A DNA stretch of 59,451 nucleotides from a virus. The position numbers and the translations under genes were made by a program. Location: IMG/VR virus record IMGVR_UViG_3300035670_000233, positions 1-59,451 of that record; one strand, written 5' to 3'. Shown here in pieces: positions 3,075-59,324 of this stretch. Position 1 is the first letter of the stretch, and each line of letters opens with the position of its first letter. The notes beneath the pieces are model-generated. The model searched no databases and was not told the origin of the DNA. It saw nothing but the letters and a program-made list of their open reading frames with translations.

Positions 3075-3583
3075 ACTTCCCTCAAAGATTCTAGGAACGC
3101 CACTTCTTCCTCGCAGGCTTGGATTAACCCTCGTCTATCGGACTCTTTCCCCTGGAAAAGATATTCTCTAAGAAACGCGGCTTTGTCATAGGGCGTACCT
3201 CGGCAGTAGAGTTGTCCAGTTCTCTTAAATACGGGACAACCAACACAGCGACCATTTAGAAACAGCAAACATAAAGCACAGAACCTAGGGCTTATCCCTA
3301 TTAGCTTACCGCTCTTAGCCAACGCTACATTATCTTTCCAGTGCTCGATGCTTTCTTCTAATGCCTTCATAATAATCCCCAACAGAACATGTCCACTCTT
3401 AATCGTGTTGGTATTGCACTCAGAGCAGAATCCATCATGGCAGTCTGGTTCAACGAACTCCACCTGATTGCACCCATCATTGGTGCAAATGCCTGGAATA
3501 ACACTCTCGTCTCCATACTGATCGAGATAATCAGCCAGATCATCTAAGCCCTCAACCTCAAACAAATCATCAAGCTTGCTCAT
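3071..3583 (-). CDS. Protein with two cysteine-rich putative zinc sites
   Basis: 170 residues. An acidic N-terminus leads to a first site near residues 33-57 (CTNDGCNQ, then CHDGFCSEC). A second site lies in the C-terminal half (CALCLLFLNGRCVGCP, then YCRGTPYD). The first resembles zinc-finger-like segments of short phage proteins of unknown role, and the second looks like a separate small domain, so this may be a fusion. It is coupled to the sigma-like gene upstream and the ligase downstream. Confidence 0.7.
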   Translation of the reverse strand: MSKLDDLFEVEGLDDLADYLDQYGDESVIPGICTNDGCNQVEFVEPDCHDGFCSECNTNTIKSGHVLLGIIMKALEESIEHWKDNVALAKSGKLIGISPRFCALCLLFLNGRCVGCPVFKRTGQLYCRGTPYDKAAFLREYLFQGKESDRRGLIQACEEEVAFLESLREV

Positions 3584-4283
3584 TTCTTTTCTCCCTTCGC
3601 TTCTTCATGCACTCTTTGCACTTACCAAAGTAGGATCTTCGTTGATTGGGACCACGAACCCGCGTATAAAATTCCGTGGAACTCTTGATCAAACCACACT
3701 CGTTACATTTGATCTTTTCTTCTGGTTCTTCGCGGGGGTGGAATCCTTCCTCTAAAAGAACCCTCTTTATTCCAGTTAAACGCTTCACCACGGTGGAGTG
3801 ATCTAGCTCCAGCACTTGAGCTATTTCTTCCACCGTCCACCCATCGAGTCGTTTCTCGACGATTACACGATCCAGTGGCTCTAGTTGGAAGTCCTTAATG
3901 AGGTCATACTCATCATAGGTGTATCTTGGCGCACCAGAAATATCCAGACCCGAACTCAAAGATACGATAATCGGCCGCACGCCCTTCTTTAGTTGAACTG
4001 GCATCCTCGTTAAGGAATCTTCCTCAGGATCTGGATCTACCAAATCACGAGTGCGTGGTTTGTGTACTACACAGTCCGACACCACGAAGTTCTTACAGGC
4101 ACCTTTGCACCTTAAGAAGACAATCGCCTCAGGATTCTTATGCTCTCCATCGTGGGTGTTGGCGAAGACTGTTAGTTCCTCGTAGGCCAGCATCAGCAAC
4201 TCATCGTACAGATGCGGGTGTGTAGCCTTGAACAGATCAGCGGCTTTCTTAGCCGTGGGCATGAGTGCTTCGATGTTAATCAT
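3570..4283 (-). CDS. Sigma-70-like factor with C-terminal zinc ribbon
   Basis: 237 residues. A helical N-terminal part (about 10-75) could match sigma region 2. The helix-turn-helix at about 140-177 (VEEIAQVLELDHSTVVKRL) has the pattern of sigma region 4 or ECF factors. The end carries a zinc-ribbon-like CNEC (193-196) and CKEC (222-225). A phage sigma-like factor could direct host RNA polymerase to late or middle promoters, and the conserved elements before the three large operons are candidate targets. It could instead be a plain HTH regulator. Confidence 0.6.
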   Translation of the reverse strand: MINIEALMPTAKKAADLFKATHPHLYDELLMLAYEELTVFANTHDGEHKNPEAIVFLRCKGACKNFVVSDCVVHKPRTRDLVDPDPEEDSLTRMPVQLKKGVRPIIVSLSSGLDISGAPRYTYDEYDLIKDFQLEPLDRVIVEKRLDGWTVEEIAQVLELDHSTVVKRLTGIKRVLLEEGFHPREEPEEKIKCNECGLIKSSTEFYTRVRGPNQRRSYFGKCKECMKKRREKRNEQA

Positions 4284-11281: not shown

Positions 11282-11348
11282 ATAATCCTCCTTGCCAATA
11301 ATCAAATCATTGGCGTGATTTTTTGCATCCAATATTCCCCTTTCAGCA
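11282..11348 (-). promoter_or_regulatory. Structured leader of the internal leftward operon
   Basis: The leader between the predicted start near 11349 and the TTG gene holds an 8-codon ORF (11302-11328, MQKITPMI) behind AAAGGGG. It also holds a hairpin (GCCAAT 11294-11299 with ATTGGC 11309-11314) that abuts the AAGGAGG ribosome site. The loop carries the TGATTTGATTATTG motif. This could control translation or transcription, by inference. Confidence 0.4.
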
Positions 11349-11384: not shown

Positions 11385-11455
11385 GCATAATTTTCACAAC
11401 TATATTTTTGCAAAATAGCACGGACTGGCACACTTCCTGCTTTGCAATAATCAAA

Positions 11456-11962
11456 TCACTGCGTAGATTTTACTTCAAACATCGACTTAGGGATTTCGCA
11501 AATTGTAACCTTTGGACCTTCAAGGGCTAGCACATCCCGACTAATGGAGCACGCAAGAATCAATACATGTTTCCCGTTTTCTACTAGATACTTGATCAAT
11601 GGAATCATATCCCCGTTGCCGCTACCAAGAACCAGCATATCCAAACCAGGCATATCGCGAATCATTTCCACCGTAATACCTACACTCCAGCAGAATTTAT
11701 ACTTTACCTTACCGTCTCTGGACTTAACCACCTTGGTCTTTTCATAGACTGGCTGTATGCCAATTTCAGCTAATCTCTCTAGGAACTTGGCCGCTTCATC
11801 AGCTACTTGAGAACCGTACGCCCTTGCCGTTAGGACTGTGCCTAGATCCTTGATGAACTTCATGTATGCTGCGTAATCAAGTTTGTATTCCTCGCCATAC
11901 TTGGTCTTGGCCGAGTAATACAGATTTGCGACATCAATATATACGCCGATTGTTTTTCTCAT
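11456..11962 (-). CDS. NYN-domain (LabA/PIN-like) protein
   Basis: 168 residues. TIGVYIDVANLYYS holds the first acidic residue and asparagine of NYN domains, YGSQV lies in the middle, and LDMLVLGSGNGDMIPLI carries the later acidic cluster. These PIN-like proteins are predicted ribonucleases, so a role in RNA turnover is likely. The ATG at 11962 overlaps the upstream stop (ATGA) behind GAGGACACG. Its stop lies within a TGATTTGATTATTG motif copy. Confidence 0.75.
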   Translation of the reverse strand: MRKTIGVYIDVANLYYSAKTKYGEEYKLDYAAYMKFIKDLGTVLTARAYGSQVADEAAKFLERLAEIGIQPVYEKTKVVKSRDGKVKYKFCWSVGITVEMIRDMPGLDMLVLGSGNGDMIPLIKYLVENGKHVLILACSISRDVLALEGPKVTICEIPKSMFEVKSTQ

Positions 11963-23639: not shown

Positions 23640-24611
23640 TTATTCCTCGTCTTCGAGGGCGGCCTTGGCTTCCTCAGCTTCCTGCTGAGCCTTGCGGGCC
23701 TTCTCAGCCTTCGCTTCGGCCTTCTTCTTAGCAGCCTCAACACGCTTCTGCTCGCGCTCAGCCTCGCGCTGATCAAACGCAGCCTTCTGAACCTCGACCG
23801 ACTTCGGATCAAGGTGCAGAACCCACTGCAGGGCGACCGTTGCAGCCGCCGCCGGATCGGTGATGCCACCAATCACGCCGCTGAGGTTGTTGATGTCCGC
23901 CGCCGCATCCTTAATCTCGCTCAGCTTACGCAGGTGAGCGACAGGCGCGAACGTGGGCGGTGCAGCATCCTTGCCTGCGCGCGAGGATTCACGAATCTCC
24001 TTCGCACGAGCCTGCACTGCCGGACCAAACTCCTCGAACTTGCTCGTCATGGCGCGCTCAACCCACTCAGGAATCTCCGACGCCGGAAGCTTCGTGAGTG
24101 CGAACGCGTTAGACAGAGGAATCTTGCCCTCGTTAATCAGCTCGGCAACCTTCGGGTTGTCGATCTTGTTCAGGCCGAGACGATTCTGGATGAACTGCGG
24201 GCTAGCACCCAGGCGATTCGCCAAATCCATCTCAGTCATCATCGGATTACGCGCAAGAATACGCCGAAGCTGCTTGGCGTACTCCATCGGCTTCGTGTCC
24301 ACCTTGTGGAAGTTGGCCATGATCTGCATTTCGAGCAGACGGTCCTGATCCAGAGGACGCACCTCAGCGTTAATCTCGTCGAGGCCCGCATCCTTGGCGG
24401 CAGAGTAGCGATGCAGACCGTCGATAATCTCGTAGTACGACTGATTGGTCTCAGGATCGGTCTGAGGCCGCACGGTAATCGCACCAAAGAATCCAACGGA
24501 GCGCATCGACGCAACAAGACCCTGAAACGCCTCGCTCTCACGGTTGACAGCGCGCAGCGCAACAGGGTTCTCACGAATATCCGACAGCTTGATCTTGATA
24601 ACTTCGCCCAT
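23640..24611 (-). CDS. ParB/RepB-like nuclease-domain protein
   Basis: 323 residues, the first gene of the long leftward operon. The ParB N-terminal domain has IKLSDIRENPVAL, then YEIIDGLHRYSAAKDAG (the GxHR box near 65) and MQIMANFHKVDTKPMEY. The HTH is MTEMDLANRLGASPQFIQNRL. The last 70 residues are a Lys/Glu/Ala coiled coil (AEREQKRVEAAKKK). It is more GC-rich than its neighbours, suggesting high expression. It may bind sites in the adjacent control region. Confidence 0.8.
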   Translation of the reverse strand: MGEVIKIKLSDIRENPVALRAVNRESEAFQGLVASMRSVGFFGAITVRPQTDPETNQSYYEIIDGLHRYSAAKDAGLDEINAEVRPLDQDRLLEMQIMANFHKVDTKPMEYAKQLRRILARNPMMTEMDLANRLGASPQFIQNRLGLNKIDNPKVAELINEGKIPLSNAFALTKLPASEIPEWVERAMTSKFEEFGPAVQARAKEIRESSRAGKDAAPPTFAPVAHLRKLSEIKDAAADINNLSGVIGGITDPAAAATVALQWVLHLDPKSVEVQKAAFDQREAEREQKRVEAAKKKAEAKAEKARKAQQEAEEAKAALEDEE

Positions 24612-24727
24612 GACTATTAATCCTTCTTCTACGTTGATTACTCTTGCTCGTCACCTATACGATTATTGTATCAGCACCCCCTTTCCAATAATCAAATCAC
24701 TGTCAGCGGTCCTACGTCCGCCTCACG

Positions 24728-24782
24728 ACTATACACGCGGATATGGGTAAATTGTGACTTACTGACTTTGCCCTACTATACC
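24728..24782 (-). promoter_or_regulatory. Conserved control element, left arm
   Basis: Read leftward it carries GTCACAATTTACCC, six bases, GCGTGTATAGT, which matches the right arm and the element at 57.2 kb. GTCACA with TGTATA at 17 bases is promoter-like. It stands about 117 bases before the leftward ParB-like gene. Confidence 0.65.
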
Positions 24783-24825
24783 TTATATACATTTTGACTA
24801 ACAACAAAATAAATACAATATAGTA

Positions 24826-24880
24826 GGTTATAGGGTCAAAAGTTAGTAATTCACAATTTACCCATATCGGCGTGTATAGT
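24826..24880 (+). promoter_or_regulatory. Conserved control element, right arm
   Basis: The inverted partner of 24728-24782, with only a few mismatches over 55 bases. In the plus direction it carries TTCACAATTTACCC, six bases, GCGTGTATAGT, with 17 bases between TTCACA and TGTATA. It is 63 bases before the primase start. The 43-base spacer between the arms is strongly AT-rich. Confidence 0.65.
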
Positions 24881-24891
24881 ATTGGCAGCAC

Positions 24892-24919
24892 TGATTTGAT
24901 TATTGTACTAATCAAATCA
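24892..24919. promoter_or_regulatory. Perfect 11-bp inverted repeat (operator candidate)
   Basis: TGATTTGATTA (24892-24902) and TAATCAAATCA (24909-24919) flank TTGTAC, 25 bases before the primase ATG. The half-site recurs at 24686-24699, 11445-11458 and 11296-11309, all in control regions. It is a good candidate for binding by the small HTH protein or a ParB-like protein. Confidence 0.6.
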
Positions 24920-24943: not shown

Positions 24944-27631
24944 ATGCCGACAAAAACTGAAGCTATAGCTAAGTGGTTAAGCGTATCCACACACCGCGAT
25001 CTAGCGGATCTGTATAATCCAGACATGGAATGTCAGGTCAATGTAGCCCAGGATGAAGGCGAAAGAATCAGTGGCGAATATCGAGGACGCAAGTGGATCG
25101 GTTGGACAGATGGCATTACAACATGGAAGCCATTTAGAATTCCAAGAAATGCCTCTACCGATCCCGAATATGAAGATTCGGAAATCAAATTTGATCTTGC
25201 CAAACATGCCGAGGGAATAGGTCTTACTGGCTGGGATTGGAAGAATAAGCTTTCAAGGTGGGTAGCTTTCGATTTTGATTCTTTAATCAACCATGGTAAG
25301 GGATTAACTGTTTCTGAGTTGGACGAGATACGAAGAATCGCCTCCGAAGTTGAATGGGTTACGATTCGCAAGTCTACCAGTGGGCGCGGACTACACCTAT
25401 ACATATTCTTAGAGGGTGTAGAGACAGCTAATCATACGGAACATGCCGCTCTTGCTCGCGCGATCCTGGGTACGCTATCGGCTATAACCGGCCACGACTT
25501 CCAAGCTGCCGTTGATTGTTGCGGTGGAAATATGTGGGTGTGGCATCGCAAGATGTCCGGCACCGATGGTCTTACTCTAATCAAACAGGGGTGTGCCTTA
25601 AAACATATTCCCCCAAACTGGAAAGATCATCTTACAGTAGTGTCTGGAAAGCGCCGTAAGAATCTTCCACAGCAGATTGAACAATCGGCCATTGATCCAG
25701 ACATCTTTGAGCAACTGTGCGGTCAGAGAGCTAAGATTCCACTGGATGAGGATCACCAAAAGGTAATTAGCTTTCTAAGAGACAATGATCTTCTTTGGTG
25801 GTGGGATCAGGATCATCATATGTTAGTTACCCACACCGTGCACCTAAAGCGTGCACACGAAGAATTACAGCTTCGTGGATTCTTCGACACTAACAGTCCA
25901 GCTACGAATCTAAATGAACAGAATTGCTTTTGTTTTCCGCTGCGTGGTGGCATATGGGGTGTGCGTAGATACACACTAGGAATCCAAGAACATGAGTCCT
26001 GGGAGCAGGATGGTGCGGGGTGGACTAGGTGTTATCTAAATAAGAAACCTGATCTACGAATCGCTGCACGCGCCGGTGGTGGTGTAGAAGACGACAAGTT
26101 TGGATTCAATTTCCGGGAAGCAGAAGTAATGCAGCAATCAGCTGCCTTGCTTGGCATTGACGTTAGGTTCGGAAAATCTTTCATGGGTAGACCGGCTCGC
26201 ATGTCTGAACATAAGGATGGAAGATTAGTAATTAGCATCGAGCGTAAGGAAACAGACGACGGTTCAGAAATGCCTGGGTGGTTGGCTAAGAAGAAAGAAT
26301 GGGTAAGAATCTTTAATGCCCAGACCTCCGACCCAGTGGAGTCCGAGGTTGGTAACTATGATGACCTAATCCGACATCTAGTTACTGGCGGTGGTGAAGA
26401 CTGTGGCTGGATGATTAAGTCATCTAATCTGTGGCGCGAGGAACCGCTTACGCACGTCAAGCTAGCTCTTGGCTCCCTAGGATTAAAGCAGTCTGAGGCT
26501 AATACCATTCTAGGTCAAAGTGTTACTAATTGCTGGAAGCTTGTATGCAGACCCTTTCAACCGGAATATCCAGGTGATCGAGAATGGAATAGAAAAGCTG
26601 CCCAATTCCGATTTACTCCAACTCTCGACCTAGAGAATCTTTCTTATCCACACTGGGACAAGATATTGAAACACTGTGGAGAGGGACTGGACGAGGCTGT
26701 ACGTAATAATCAATGGGCTAGAAGTAATGGAATAATGACGGGAGCAGACTACCTAAAAGTATGGATTGCTTCTCTATTTCAACACCCGAATGATCCATTA
26801 CCATATCTATTCTTATACAGTGCAGAACAAAATACTGGAAAATCAATTCTGCATGAAGCTCTTAGTCTACTGGTCACTGGTGGATATGTTAGAGCTGATG
26901 CTGCCTTGGTATCACAGGGTGGATTCAATGCAGAGCTTGAGGGCGCAGTAGTCTGTGTTGTGGAAGAACTAGACCTACGCAAGAATACGAGCGCGTACAA
27001 CCGAATTAAGGATTGGGTTACTTCGAGAGAGGTATTAATCCATCCAAAGTTCGCTACTCCCTACCAAGCTCCGAACACAACACACTGGATTCATTGTGCT
27101 AACTCCCACAATGCCTGCCCAGTATTTCCAGGCGATACCCGCATAACTATGATGCGAGTGAAACCGCTCGATCTGATAGAATTGATTCCAAAGAAGAAGT
27201 TTCTGGCTGCTCTTGAAAAGGAAGCACCTGACTTCTTAGCAGCCATTCTAAGTTTGGATATTCCAGACTCGGCTGATCGTCTAAATGTGCCCGTAATCGT
27301 AACGGAAGATAAGCTGGTGGCCGAGCATCTGAACAAATCGCCAGTTGAGCTATTCTTGGAAGAACACTGCAAACCGGTGGAAGGCTGTAAGATTAAATTC
27401 AGTGAATTGTTCGAGCGATTCCAGCAGACTCTTGATGCAAATGATTTTTCGAAATATACCAAGCAGGCGTTTGGTAAAGACCTTCCACCTATGTATCCCA
27501 AGGGTCGATCTACGACGGATGCGCAGCTGTATGTTGGAAATATTGCTTGGAAGACAGACGCTAATCAATACGCTGGTAAATATGTCTTAAAAGACATATA
27601 CCTAGTTAAAAGAGAGGAGGCGCAACTATGA
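24944..27631 (+). CDS. Primase-helicase (AEP domain fused to SF3-type helicase)
   Basis: 895 residues. The N-terminal archaeo-eukaryotic primase has the catalytic VAFDFDSL (108-115), SGRGLHLYIFL (146-156) and DCCGGNMWVWHRK near 190. The C-terminal helicase has Walker A SAEQNTGKS near 630, VVCVVEELDLRKN as Walker B, and HWIHCANSHNACPV as sensor-like. This is the plan of phage NrS-1-like and plasmid primase-polymerases. It would prime and unwind DNA for the family A polymerase. GAGGAAATAATC precedes the ATG. Confidence 0.88.
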   Translation: MPTKTEAIAKWLSVSTHRDLADLYNPDMECQVNVAQDEGERISGEYRGRKWIGWTDGITTWKPFRIPRNASTDPEYEDSEIKFDLAKHAEGIGLTGWDWKNKLSRWVAFDFDSLINHGKGLTVSELDEIRRIASEVEWVTIRKSTSGRGLHLYIFLEGVETANHTEHAALARAILGTLSAITGHDFQAAVDCCGGNMWVWHRKMSGTDGLTLIKQGCALKHIPPNWKDHLTVVSGKRRKNLPQQIEQSAIDPDIFEQLCGQRAKIPLDEDHQKVISFLRDNDLLWWWDQDHHMLVTHTVHLKRAHEELQLRGFFDTNSPATNLNEQNCFCFPLRGGIWGVRRYTLGIQEHESWEQDGAGWTRCYLNKKPDLRIAARAGGGVEDDKFGFNFREAEVMQQSAALLGIDVRFGKSFMGRPARMSEHKDGRLVISIERKETDDGSEMPGWLAKKKEWVRIFNAQTSDPVESEVGNYDDLIRHLVTGGGEDCGWMIKSSNLWREEPLTHVKLALGSLGLKQSEANTILGQSVTNCWKLVCRPFQPEYPGDREWNRKAAQFRFTPTLDLENLSYPHWDKILKHCGEGLDEAVRNNQWARSNGIMTGADYLKVWIASLFQHPNDPLPYLFLYSAEQNTGKSILHEALSLLVTGGYVRADAALVSQGGFNAELEGAVVCVVEELDLRKNTSAYNRIKDWVTSREVLIHPKFATPYQAPNTTHWIHCANSHNACPVFPGDTRITMMRVKPLDLIELIPKKKFLAALEKEAPDFLAAILSLDIPDSADRLNVPVIVTEDKLVAEHLNKSPVELFLEEHCKPVEGCKIKFSELFERFQQTLDANDFSKYTKQAFGKDLPPMYPKGRSTTDAQLYVGNIAWKTDANQYAGKYVLKDIYLVKREEAQL

Positions 27632-55408: not shown

Positions 55409-56308
55409 TTAGGGCAGTGTAGTATCGGTAGTAGAAGTGTCGGTCGTGGTGGAAGTGTCAGTCGTGGTAGTAGAAGTAGTAGTCGTACTATCGGTAGTCG
55501 TACTATCGGTAGTCGTACTATCGGTAGTCGTACTATCGGTAGTCGTACTATCGGTAGTCATACTATCGGTAGTCGTACTATCGGTAGTCGTACTATCGGT
55601 AGTCGTACTATCGGTAGTCGTACTATCGGTAGTCGTAGAGGATGAAGTAGTCGTACTATCGGTAGTCGTAGTCGTGTCGGGTGTGGTGGTAGTAGAACTA
55701 GTGGTGGTAGTAGTAGTAGAACTAGTAGTAGTAGAACTAGTAGTAGTAGAACTAGTAGTGGTGTACGTGGCTTCATAGGTCCAGGGATTTATGAAGTCCG
55801 AAAGGACCCACGTCGTAGAATCAAAAGCCATAAGCGTGACCTGTGACCACGCCGCGGTGTTGGTTTCGGAATAGCCAGAATAGACGGCGTCATATCCTGC
55901 AATGCTATCAGAATCATTCGCGATCAGATATAGAAGAACTCCCCTCTGCTTAACAACAATCTTAAGAGTCTCACCTGCAGCTGTAATCTTAGGCAGAATA
56001 GACTCAAAAATCTTAACATCAGTTAGATCGTAGGTAACCGTAGAATTAAGATTATCACGAGTCAAAACTGCGGGTCCAATAGTTGCTCGCATCTGGTTAG
56101 TTGCAGCGTTCCAATTATTGGTATCCAGAGCCATCTGATTAGAGATTCTTTGGGACTCTGTGTATCCTGAAACACCCAGGGCTACATCCGCCTCGATAAG
56201 AACCTTATCAGCAGACCAGACCGGATCGCTCTCATTCACACCTGGAGTGATTGTATCTGCCCTAGCAAGTAGAGCTAAGGAAAAGAAAAAGGCAATTAGC
56301 TTCTTCAT
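55409..56308 (-). CDS. Secreted protein with Thr/Ser/Asp repeat tail
   Basis: 299 residues. MKKLIAFFFSLALLARAD is a signal peptide. A beta-rich domain (about 25-190) with an LKIVVKQRGVLLYLIANDS segment follows. The C-terminal ~110 residues are almost only Thr, Ser and Asp (DSTTT units), a low-complexity stalk that could be glycosylated. AAGGGAATAATC precedes the ATG at 56308. Confidence 0.7.
   Translation of the reverse strand: MKKLIAFFFSLALLARADTITPGVNESDPVWSADKVLIEADVALGVSGYTESQRISNQMALDTNNWNAATNQMRATIGPAVLTRDNLNSTVTYDLTDVKIFESILPKITAAGETLKIVVKQRGVLLYLIANDSDSIAGYDAVYSGYSETNTAAWSQVTLMAFDSTTWVLSDFINPWTYEATYTTTSSTTTSSTTTSSTTTTTTSSTTTTPDTTTTTDSTTTSSSTTTDSTTTDSTTTDSTTTDSTTTDSMTTDSTTTDSTTTDSTTTDSTTTDSTTTTSTTTTDTSTTTDTSTTDTTLP
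55481..55630. repeat. 15-bp tandem repeat encoding the Thr/Ser/Asp tail
   Basis: Ten copies of AGTCGTACTATCGGT (one with a single base change near 55560) encode repeated DSTTT. The flanking sequence has shorter related triplet repeats to 55760. Confidence 0.9.
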
Positions 56309-58907: not shown

Positions 58908-59060
58908 GTCCTAGGCCCATCCTAGCGCGTTTAAAGGGCATAGGCTCTTAAACGCCTTAGGATGGTCCTAGGACCGTTTTACCCTACCAGATAAGGCAAA
59001 GACTAGGGTGGTACCCTGTCAGCATGTTCTAGGACCATCCTAGCGCGTTTAAGAGCCTAT
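58908..59060. repeat. 35-bp inverted repeat and third related copy
   Basis: 58941-58975 and 59026-59060 are inverted copies with 32 of 35 bases matching; each holds TCTTAAACG/CGTTTAAGA and a CTAGGAC box. A third copy at 58908-58934 is in the orientation of the right arm. A perfect palindrome GGTCCTAGGACC sits in the left arm. Confidence 0.85.
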
Positions 59061-59225: not shown

Positions 59226-59324
59226 ACCACCCCACACGCAAAATGATTCTTGTTGCCTTGCTTGCAACAAAAATCACGTTGCGTGTGGGGTGGTCCCCGC
59301 CCGCAACAAAAAAAATCACGTTGC
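59226..59324. repeat. Nested hairpin with repeated small stems
   Basis: A perfect 16-bp inverted repeat (59226-59241 with 59279-59294) encloses a second stem (TTGTTGC 59250-59256 with GCAACAA 59264-59270). GCAAC, A-rich loop, GTTGC occurs at 59264-59282 and again at 59303-59324. Confidence 0.85.

Follow-up and report, generated by a model that had tools for sequence, protein, structure and literature searches.

The intergenic region between the ParB-like gene and the DUF5906 primase-helicase gene of the analyzed virus DNA is a long inverted repeat and is probably a mirrored divergent promoter/operator region that co-regulates both replication clusters. The whole stretch of 59,451 nucleotides, a virus record classed as linear in IMG/VR (IMGVR_UViG_3300035670_000233), is referred to here as the window. 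Coordinated transcription control is suggested by the position of the region, its mirrored sites, its leader boxes and a second locus that shares the box and, in two genomes, also the operator. Each arm would carry one outward promoter and the same regulatory site, followed by the same leader box. The leftward cluster of ParB-like, helicase and DNA polymerase genes and the rightward cluster of primase, methylase and exonuclease genes would be switched together. The regulator acting on both arms would be encoded by the phage and might work with the phage's own sigma-like protein. The arms may be kept alike by template-switch homogenisation of the quasi-palindrome and/or by symmetric selection through one co-evolving regulator. 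We infer the role of the arms as promoters, the identity of the binding protein and the homogenising mechanism.

The inverted repeat and its gene context

The inverted repeat is a real feature, and its geometry was refined relative to the initial annotation, which had described 55-nt arms that match almost fully. An ungapped core of 42 nt per arm was 93% complementary (Table 1), but over the 55 nt only 43 positions paired without gaps and the inner 13 nt needed small gaps. The symmetry also proved longer than first described. Gapped and weaker toward the centre, it spans 24686-24905 and includes outer parts (Table 1) and inner segments, in which 24772-24789 pairs with 24810-24827. The 43-base AT-rich spacer was found as annotated, and it sits within the stretch of lowest G+C in the window, the first ~130 bases of the window excepted. 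The region had a local self-complement score of 103, whereas none of its 2000 mononucleotide shuffles exceeded 47, and this repeat was the best inverted repeat anywhere in the window. As single-stranded DNA the region folded into one long hairpin (z = -14.4).

Other repeats were found in the window. Near the right end, 58940-59060 holds a 35-nt inverted repeat (91%, 51-nt spacer), and 59226-59294 a 31-nt inverted repeat with a 7-nt loop. Tandem repeats of ~15 bases (GTACTATCGGTAGTC) lie in or beside a gene at 55430-55680, and tandem GGTGCCTGGGGCACCGCA-type repeats are located near the left end (290-370).

The placement between divergent operons and before the primase-helicase gene was borne out, with the ParB-like gene starting at 24611 (-) and the primase gene at 24944 (+). 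The same arrangement was present in the relatives examined, and in those with enough flanking DNA the ParB-like gene was usually divergent from the primase gene. The leftward cluster comprises the ParB-like gene, genes without family match, a SNF2-type helicase, a second ParB-like gene, a DNA polymerase A and nucleotide-metabolism genes. The rightward cluster is short, containing only the DUF5906 primase-helicase, a D12 adenine methylase and an exonuclease. No DNA similar to the window was found in named phages; among the matches listed, those of the primase to named phages covered only ~15% of its length. An Rfam search gave no match at the gathering threshold.

Table 1. Positions of the features in and around the inverted repeat, at the second control locus and of the sigma-like gene
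Feature	Position	Strand	Basis or remark
Sigma-70-like protein, region-4 helix-turn-helix, C-terminal zinc-ribbon-like Cys pairs (CxxC)	3570..4283	-	Iterated search
TGATTTGATTATTG box, second control locus	11296..11309	-	Downstream of promoter-like site 11384-11356 (-)
TTGACA-17-TATATT promoter-like site, second control locus	11384-11356	-	By eye
TGATTTGATTATTG box, second control locus	11445..11458	-	Overlaps stop codon of NYN-domain gene
ParB-like gene (ParB_N + HTH_ParB), first of leftward cluster	23640..24611	-	Domain matches
Outer left mirror part	24686..24702		Pairs with 24889-24905; contains TGATTTGATTATTG, oriented as the leftward (ParB) leader
Left arm, core of inverted repeat	24728..24769		42 nt, pairs with 24839-24880 at 93%
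Candidate leftward promoter GTCACA-19-TATAGT, mirroring the rightward one	24728..24758	-	By eye; not above chance
Operator-like GTGACTTACTGACT in left arm (motif M1)	24754..24767		Motif sampling and scan
M2 TATAAGGTATAGT, outward (leftward)	24772..24791	-	Genome-wide top match; motif learned from other phages
AT-rich centre (spacer)	24783..24825		43 nt, 16% G+C
Weaker mirrored M2 copy, outward (rightward)	24808..24827	+	Second-best genome-wide match
Right arm, core of inverted repeat	24839..24880		Pairs with left core
Operator-like AGTTAGTAATTCAC in right arm, mirrored	24841..24854		Motif scan
Candidate rightward promoter TTCACA-19-TATAGT	24850..24880	+	By eye; not above chance as sigma-70 match
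Outer right mirror part	24889..24905		Pairs with 24686-24702; contains TGATTTGATTATTG, oriented as the rightward (primase) leader
Leader hairpin TGATTTGATTA-6-TAATCAAATCA, upstream of primase ribosome-binding site	24892..24919	+	Folding
DUF5906 primase-helicase, first of rightward cluster	24944..27631	+	Domain matches

Symmetry in related phages

Relatives of the primase were detected in 40 viral contigs and nine genome contigs. The latter, MAG contigs, carried the labels Planctomycetota, Planctomycetaceae, Pirellulales, Bacteroidetes, Patescibacteria or Thioalkalivibrio, which indicate candidate host groups. A total of 31 intergenic regions were scored, four of them giving no usable comparison; L024, L025 and L036 were too long for shuffling and L010 was a repeat of L007. 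This left 27 phage contigs, one of them the window, in which the ParB/primase gap was <700 nt and was compared with 60 mononucleotide shuffles. The inverted-repeat score was above the shuffle mean in all 27 gaps (L043 barely) and above all 60 shuffles in 22 (exceptions L017, L022, L031, L032 and L043), the 27 contigs not being independent cases because some are close kin, such as L005 and L008. Upstream of the primase in distant MAG contigs, the inverted repeat exceeded all 40 shuffles at seven of eight loci (exception L064), with the shuffles scanned at a coarser step and L059, L061 and L064 represented by 500 nt of sequence before the primase gene. The repeat of L061 was a short hairpin, not a long mirror.

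The likeness of the arms was high within each genome and mostly absent between orthologous arms of different genomes. Alignment columns of two genomes were counted in which both arms agreed within each genome and the genomes differed, versus columns in which orthologous arms agreed while the arms of one genome differed. Aligning such divergent sequences biases this test somewhat toward the within-genome pattern, which was ahead in the window and L027 (18 vs 1), L035 and L007 (23 vs 1), L011 and L034 (18 vs 2) and L021 and L023 (18 vs 2). Close pairs displayed the reverse, namely arm-specific differences (L005 and L008, 2 vs 24; L013 and L040, 0 vs 63), and intermediate pairs were mixed (L005 and L020, 9 vs 7; L037 and L044, 10 vs 12). 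The unpaired differences in close pairs suggest that homogenisation of the arms proceeds slowly or not at all on short time scales. Since far pairs are concerted and near pairs reversed, symmetry appears to be restored or selected over longer times and not with each substitution. As judged from these alignments, the mirror symmetry is maintained while the letters of the arms turn over between phages.

Operator-like sites and candidate promoters

Motif sampling in 25 intergenic regions yielded two motifs. The information of M1 (CTkACTGACT) was 253, and three shuffled sets gave 207-216; for M2 (TATAAGGTATAG) it was 274, and shuffled sets gave 224-234. M1 is a short motif occurring widely and was ruled out as a specific marker by itself. 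With a matrix built without the window, M2 scored 21.7 in the region, and its best match in the rest of the window scored 12.8. The region also ranked first genome-wide in L027, L034 and L035 but not in L011, L015 and L007, where M2 was weak. M2 matches pointed outward in 35 cases and inward in 17 (p ~0.009 if independent, but the matches overlap and are not independent), so the outward excess is only suggestive of outward promoters.

An operator shared by both sides of the divergent region was found in records G001 and G005. In G001, the palindrome TAAGTCACCTAATTAGGTGACTTA occurred once per arm and twice at a second locus ~11.5 kb off and nowhere else (chance expectation 0), and in G005 a pattern related to the G001 operator marked the arms and a second locus. 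The arms of the group L007, L005 and L020 hold a palindrome such as TAAGTCACGTAATTACGTGACTTA. By eye, the window arms carry GTGACTTAC and GTGAATTAC at the corresponding place, which are related half-sites only.

Sigma-70-like promoters in 27 intergenic regions showed no outward enrichment over inward ones or over shuffles. The candidate arm promoters of the window (Table 1) are not above chance as sigma-70 sites, which weakens their reading as host promoters. The lack of sigma-70 enrichment would be compatible with the use of a sigma factor of the phage itself.

Leader boxes, second control locus and sigma-like protein

In the window the TGATTTGATT box stands near the head of both leaders and is oriented with each transcript. 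In phages having it, the box was mostly found in this region and at a second locus. A TGATTTGATT hairpin precedes the primase gene in many phages, and elsewhere an unrelated hairpin takes this place; the loop lengths of the primase-leader hairpins vary widely and their stem sequences are unrelated in distant phages. The primase leaders of L037 and L044 have TTGTTAAGCTTAACAA palindromes instead of the TGATTTGATT hairpin. Summed stems reached 269 in primase leaders, compared with 170-179 in shuffles, and 224 in ParB leaders, compared with 160-177. In the window, 6 of 200 shuffles folded as well as the primase leader, so that it surpassed most of them, and the ParB leader did not differ from its shuffles in this way. 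No compensatory changes within the TGATTTGATT hairpin were seen by eye in the box family, leaders of L027 and L017 included.

The second control locus of the window contains two boxes and a promoter-like site (Table 1). A second leftward TTGACA-17-TATATT promoter-like site (AGCGCCAT) is located at 58687-58659 (-) and by eye resembles the one at 11.36 kb, nearby upstream sequence included.

In several relatives the gene that follows the second locus encodes a protein in which sigma-70 regions 2 and 4 are present. By iterated search, the protein encoded at 3570-4283 in the window and its L027 counterpart joined this family, in which all 12 aligned members matched NCBIfam sigma70-ECF (TIGR02937) at E<=0.01 and the best PDB match of the family profile was a sigma factor (3e-19). 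Alone, the window protein scored 23.1 bits against a cut-off of 25.7 (Pfam) and 19.5 against 42.9 (NCBIfam). Its gene lies ~7 kb beyond the second locus along the leftward genes and not at the locus itself. The protein also has endonuclease VII-like PHROG matches. It is a candidate recogniser of the putative arm promoters.

Alternative explanations

The initial annotation had offered phage origins and paired divergent promoters as the usual contexts of such a structure. The promoter half fits the comparative data, promoter activity being predicted only, on account of the mirrored operator-like sites, the leader boxes on both sides, the operator class at the second locus and the sigma-like gene. 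The origin half was left undecided by skew and DnaA boxes. As an origin, the region would be bound at the mirrored M1 repeats by the primase-helicase or the ParB-like protein, which would open the AT-rich centre for two forks as in the SF3-helicase virus origins of SV40 and AAV, and promoters may overlap it. The low G+C of the centre, the short tetranucleotide-spaced repeats in both arms, the genome-wide top rank of M2 in the window and L027 and the adjoining primase gene in the relatives examined are in agreement with this, but we consider it unlikely. Two phages have the operator class at a second locus as well, the third-position skew on the two sides of the region was inconsistent among seven phages, and the region has no DnaA boxes, TTWTNCACA occurring only at 26644 and 32200. 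The skew switch near 24.8 kb that the annotation had proposed as a check does exist locally near 25 kb, but it tracks gene direction and is uninformative on an origin. Equally doubtful is a double role of the lineage-wide symmetric region, with arms evolving in concert through template switching or co-evolution with one regulator, as both a bidirectional promoter and a symmetric origin for the primase-helicase.

The leader boxes might be the functional elements, through RNA hairpin antitermination of the HK022 put type or translational control, and the arms merely duplicated promoter DNA. The stems of the primase leaders, which exceed those of shuffles, and the box in both window leaders would suit this, but shuffles fold as well as the ParB leader of the window, mismatches are uncompensated and the likeness of the arms reaches well past the boxes, making it improbable. 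A priming or primase assembly site formed by the single-strand hairpin, like the ssi sites of plasmid RSF1010, would account for the long hairpin beside a primase gene; it is very improbable, as shared leader boxes and second-locus operators are unexpected for such a site. Binding of the arms by the ParB-like protein for partition (a parS centromere) is suggested by the ParB_N and HTH_ParB domains encoded beside the repeat. However, no ParA was found among the genes scanned (part of the ORFs) and the spacing of the inverted boxes varies widely between phages, so that we regard a centromere as extremely improbable. The promoter/operator reading also has evidence counting against it, namely the absence of sigma-70 enrichment, the unpaired arm differences in close relatives, the overlap of M2 matches, the weakness of M2 in L011, L015 and L007 and the sub-threshold scores of the window sigma-like protein against curated cut-offs.

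Significance and comparison with known systems

Replication control regions in phages without a cultured member can be sought through a control site of this kind, recognisable from its symmetry and position and not from its letters. With primase identities from 75% down to ~40%, the relatives make up a natural series for dating the concerted evolution of inverted-repeat arms, and the site ties a sigma-like phage gene to specific candidate promoters.

In the lambdoid pL/pR layout and at other divergent early promoters of phages, two outward early transcripts have shared operators. The region described here is alike in its two predicted outward transcripts and shared operators, but it forms one continuous mirror with arms of up to 60-130 nt and is flanked by replication genes to the left and right; no repressor gene was seen, and the arms turn over in concert. 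The origins of the SF3-helicase viruses SV40 and AAV lie between divergent promoters. An AT-rich centre, mirrored short repeats and an adjacent helicase gene are common to both; here, in contrast, a second locus also has the operator class. In phage HK022, structured put leaders are reported at the start of early transcripts (PMC9378689). As with put RNA, the leaders in both directions open with a matching element, whereas the sequence here is unrelated, a stable hairpin was found in the primase leader only and antitermination would be hypothetical. In yeast, template switching reportedly homogenises the arms of inverted repeats (PMC8604942). As in such homogenised quasi-palindromes, the arms here are closer within than between genomes; they differ in belonging to a single control site that a phage lineage has conserved. 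The region is of a known kind, that of mirrored divergent phage promoters, and its unusual part is the lineage-wide concerted symmetry with sequence turnover.
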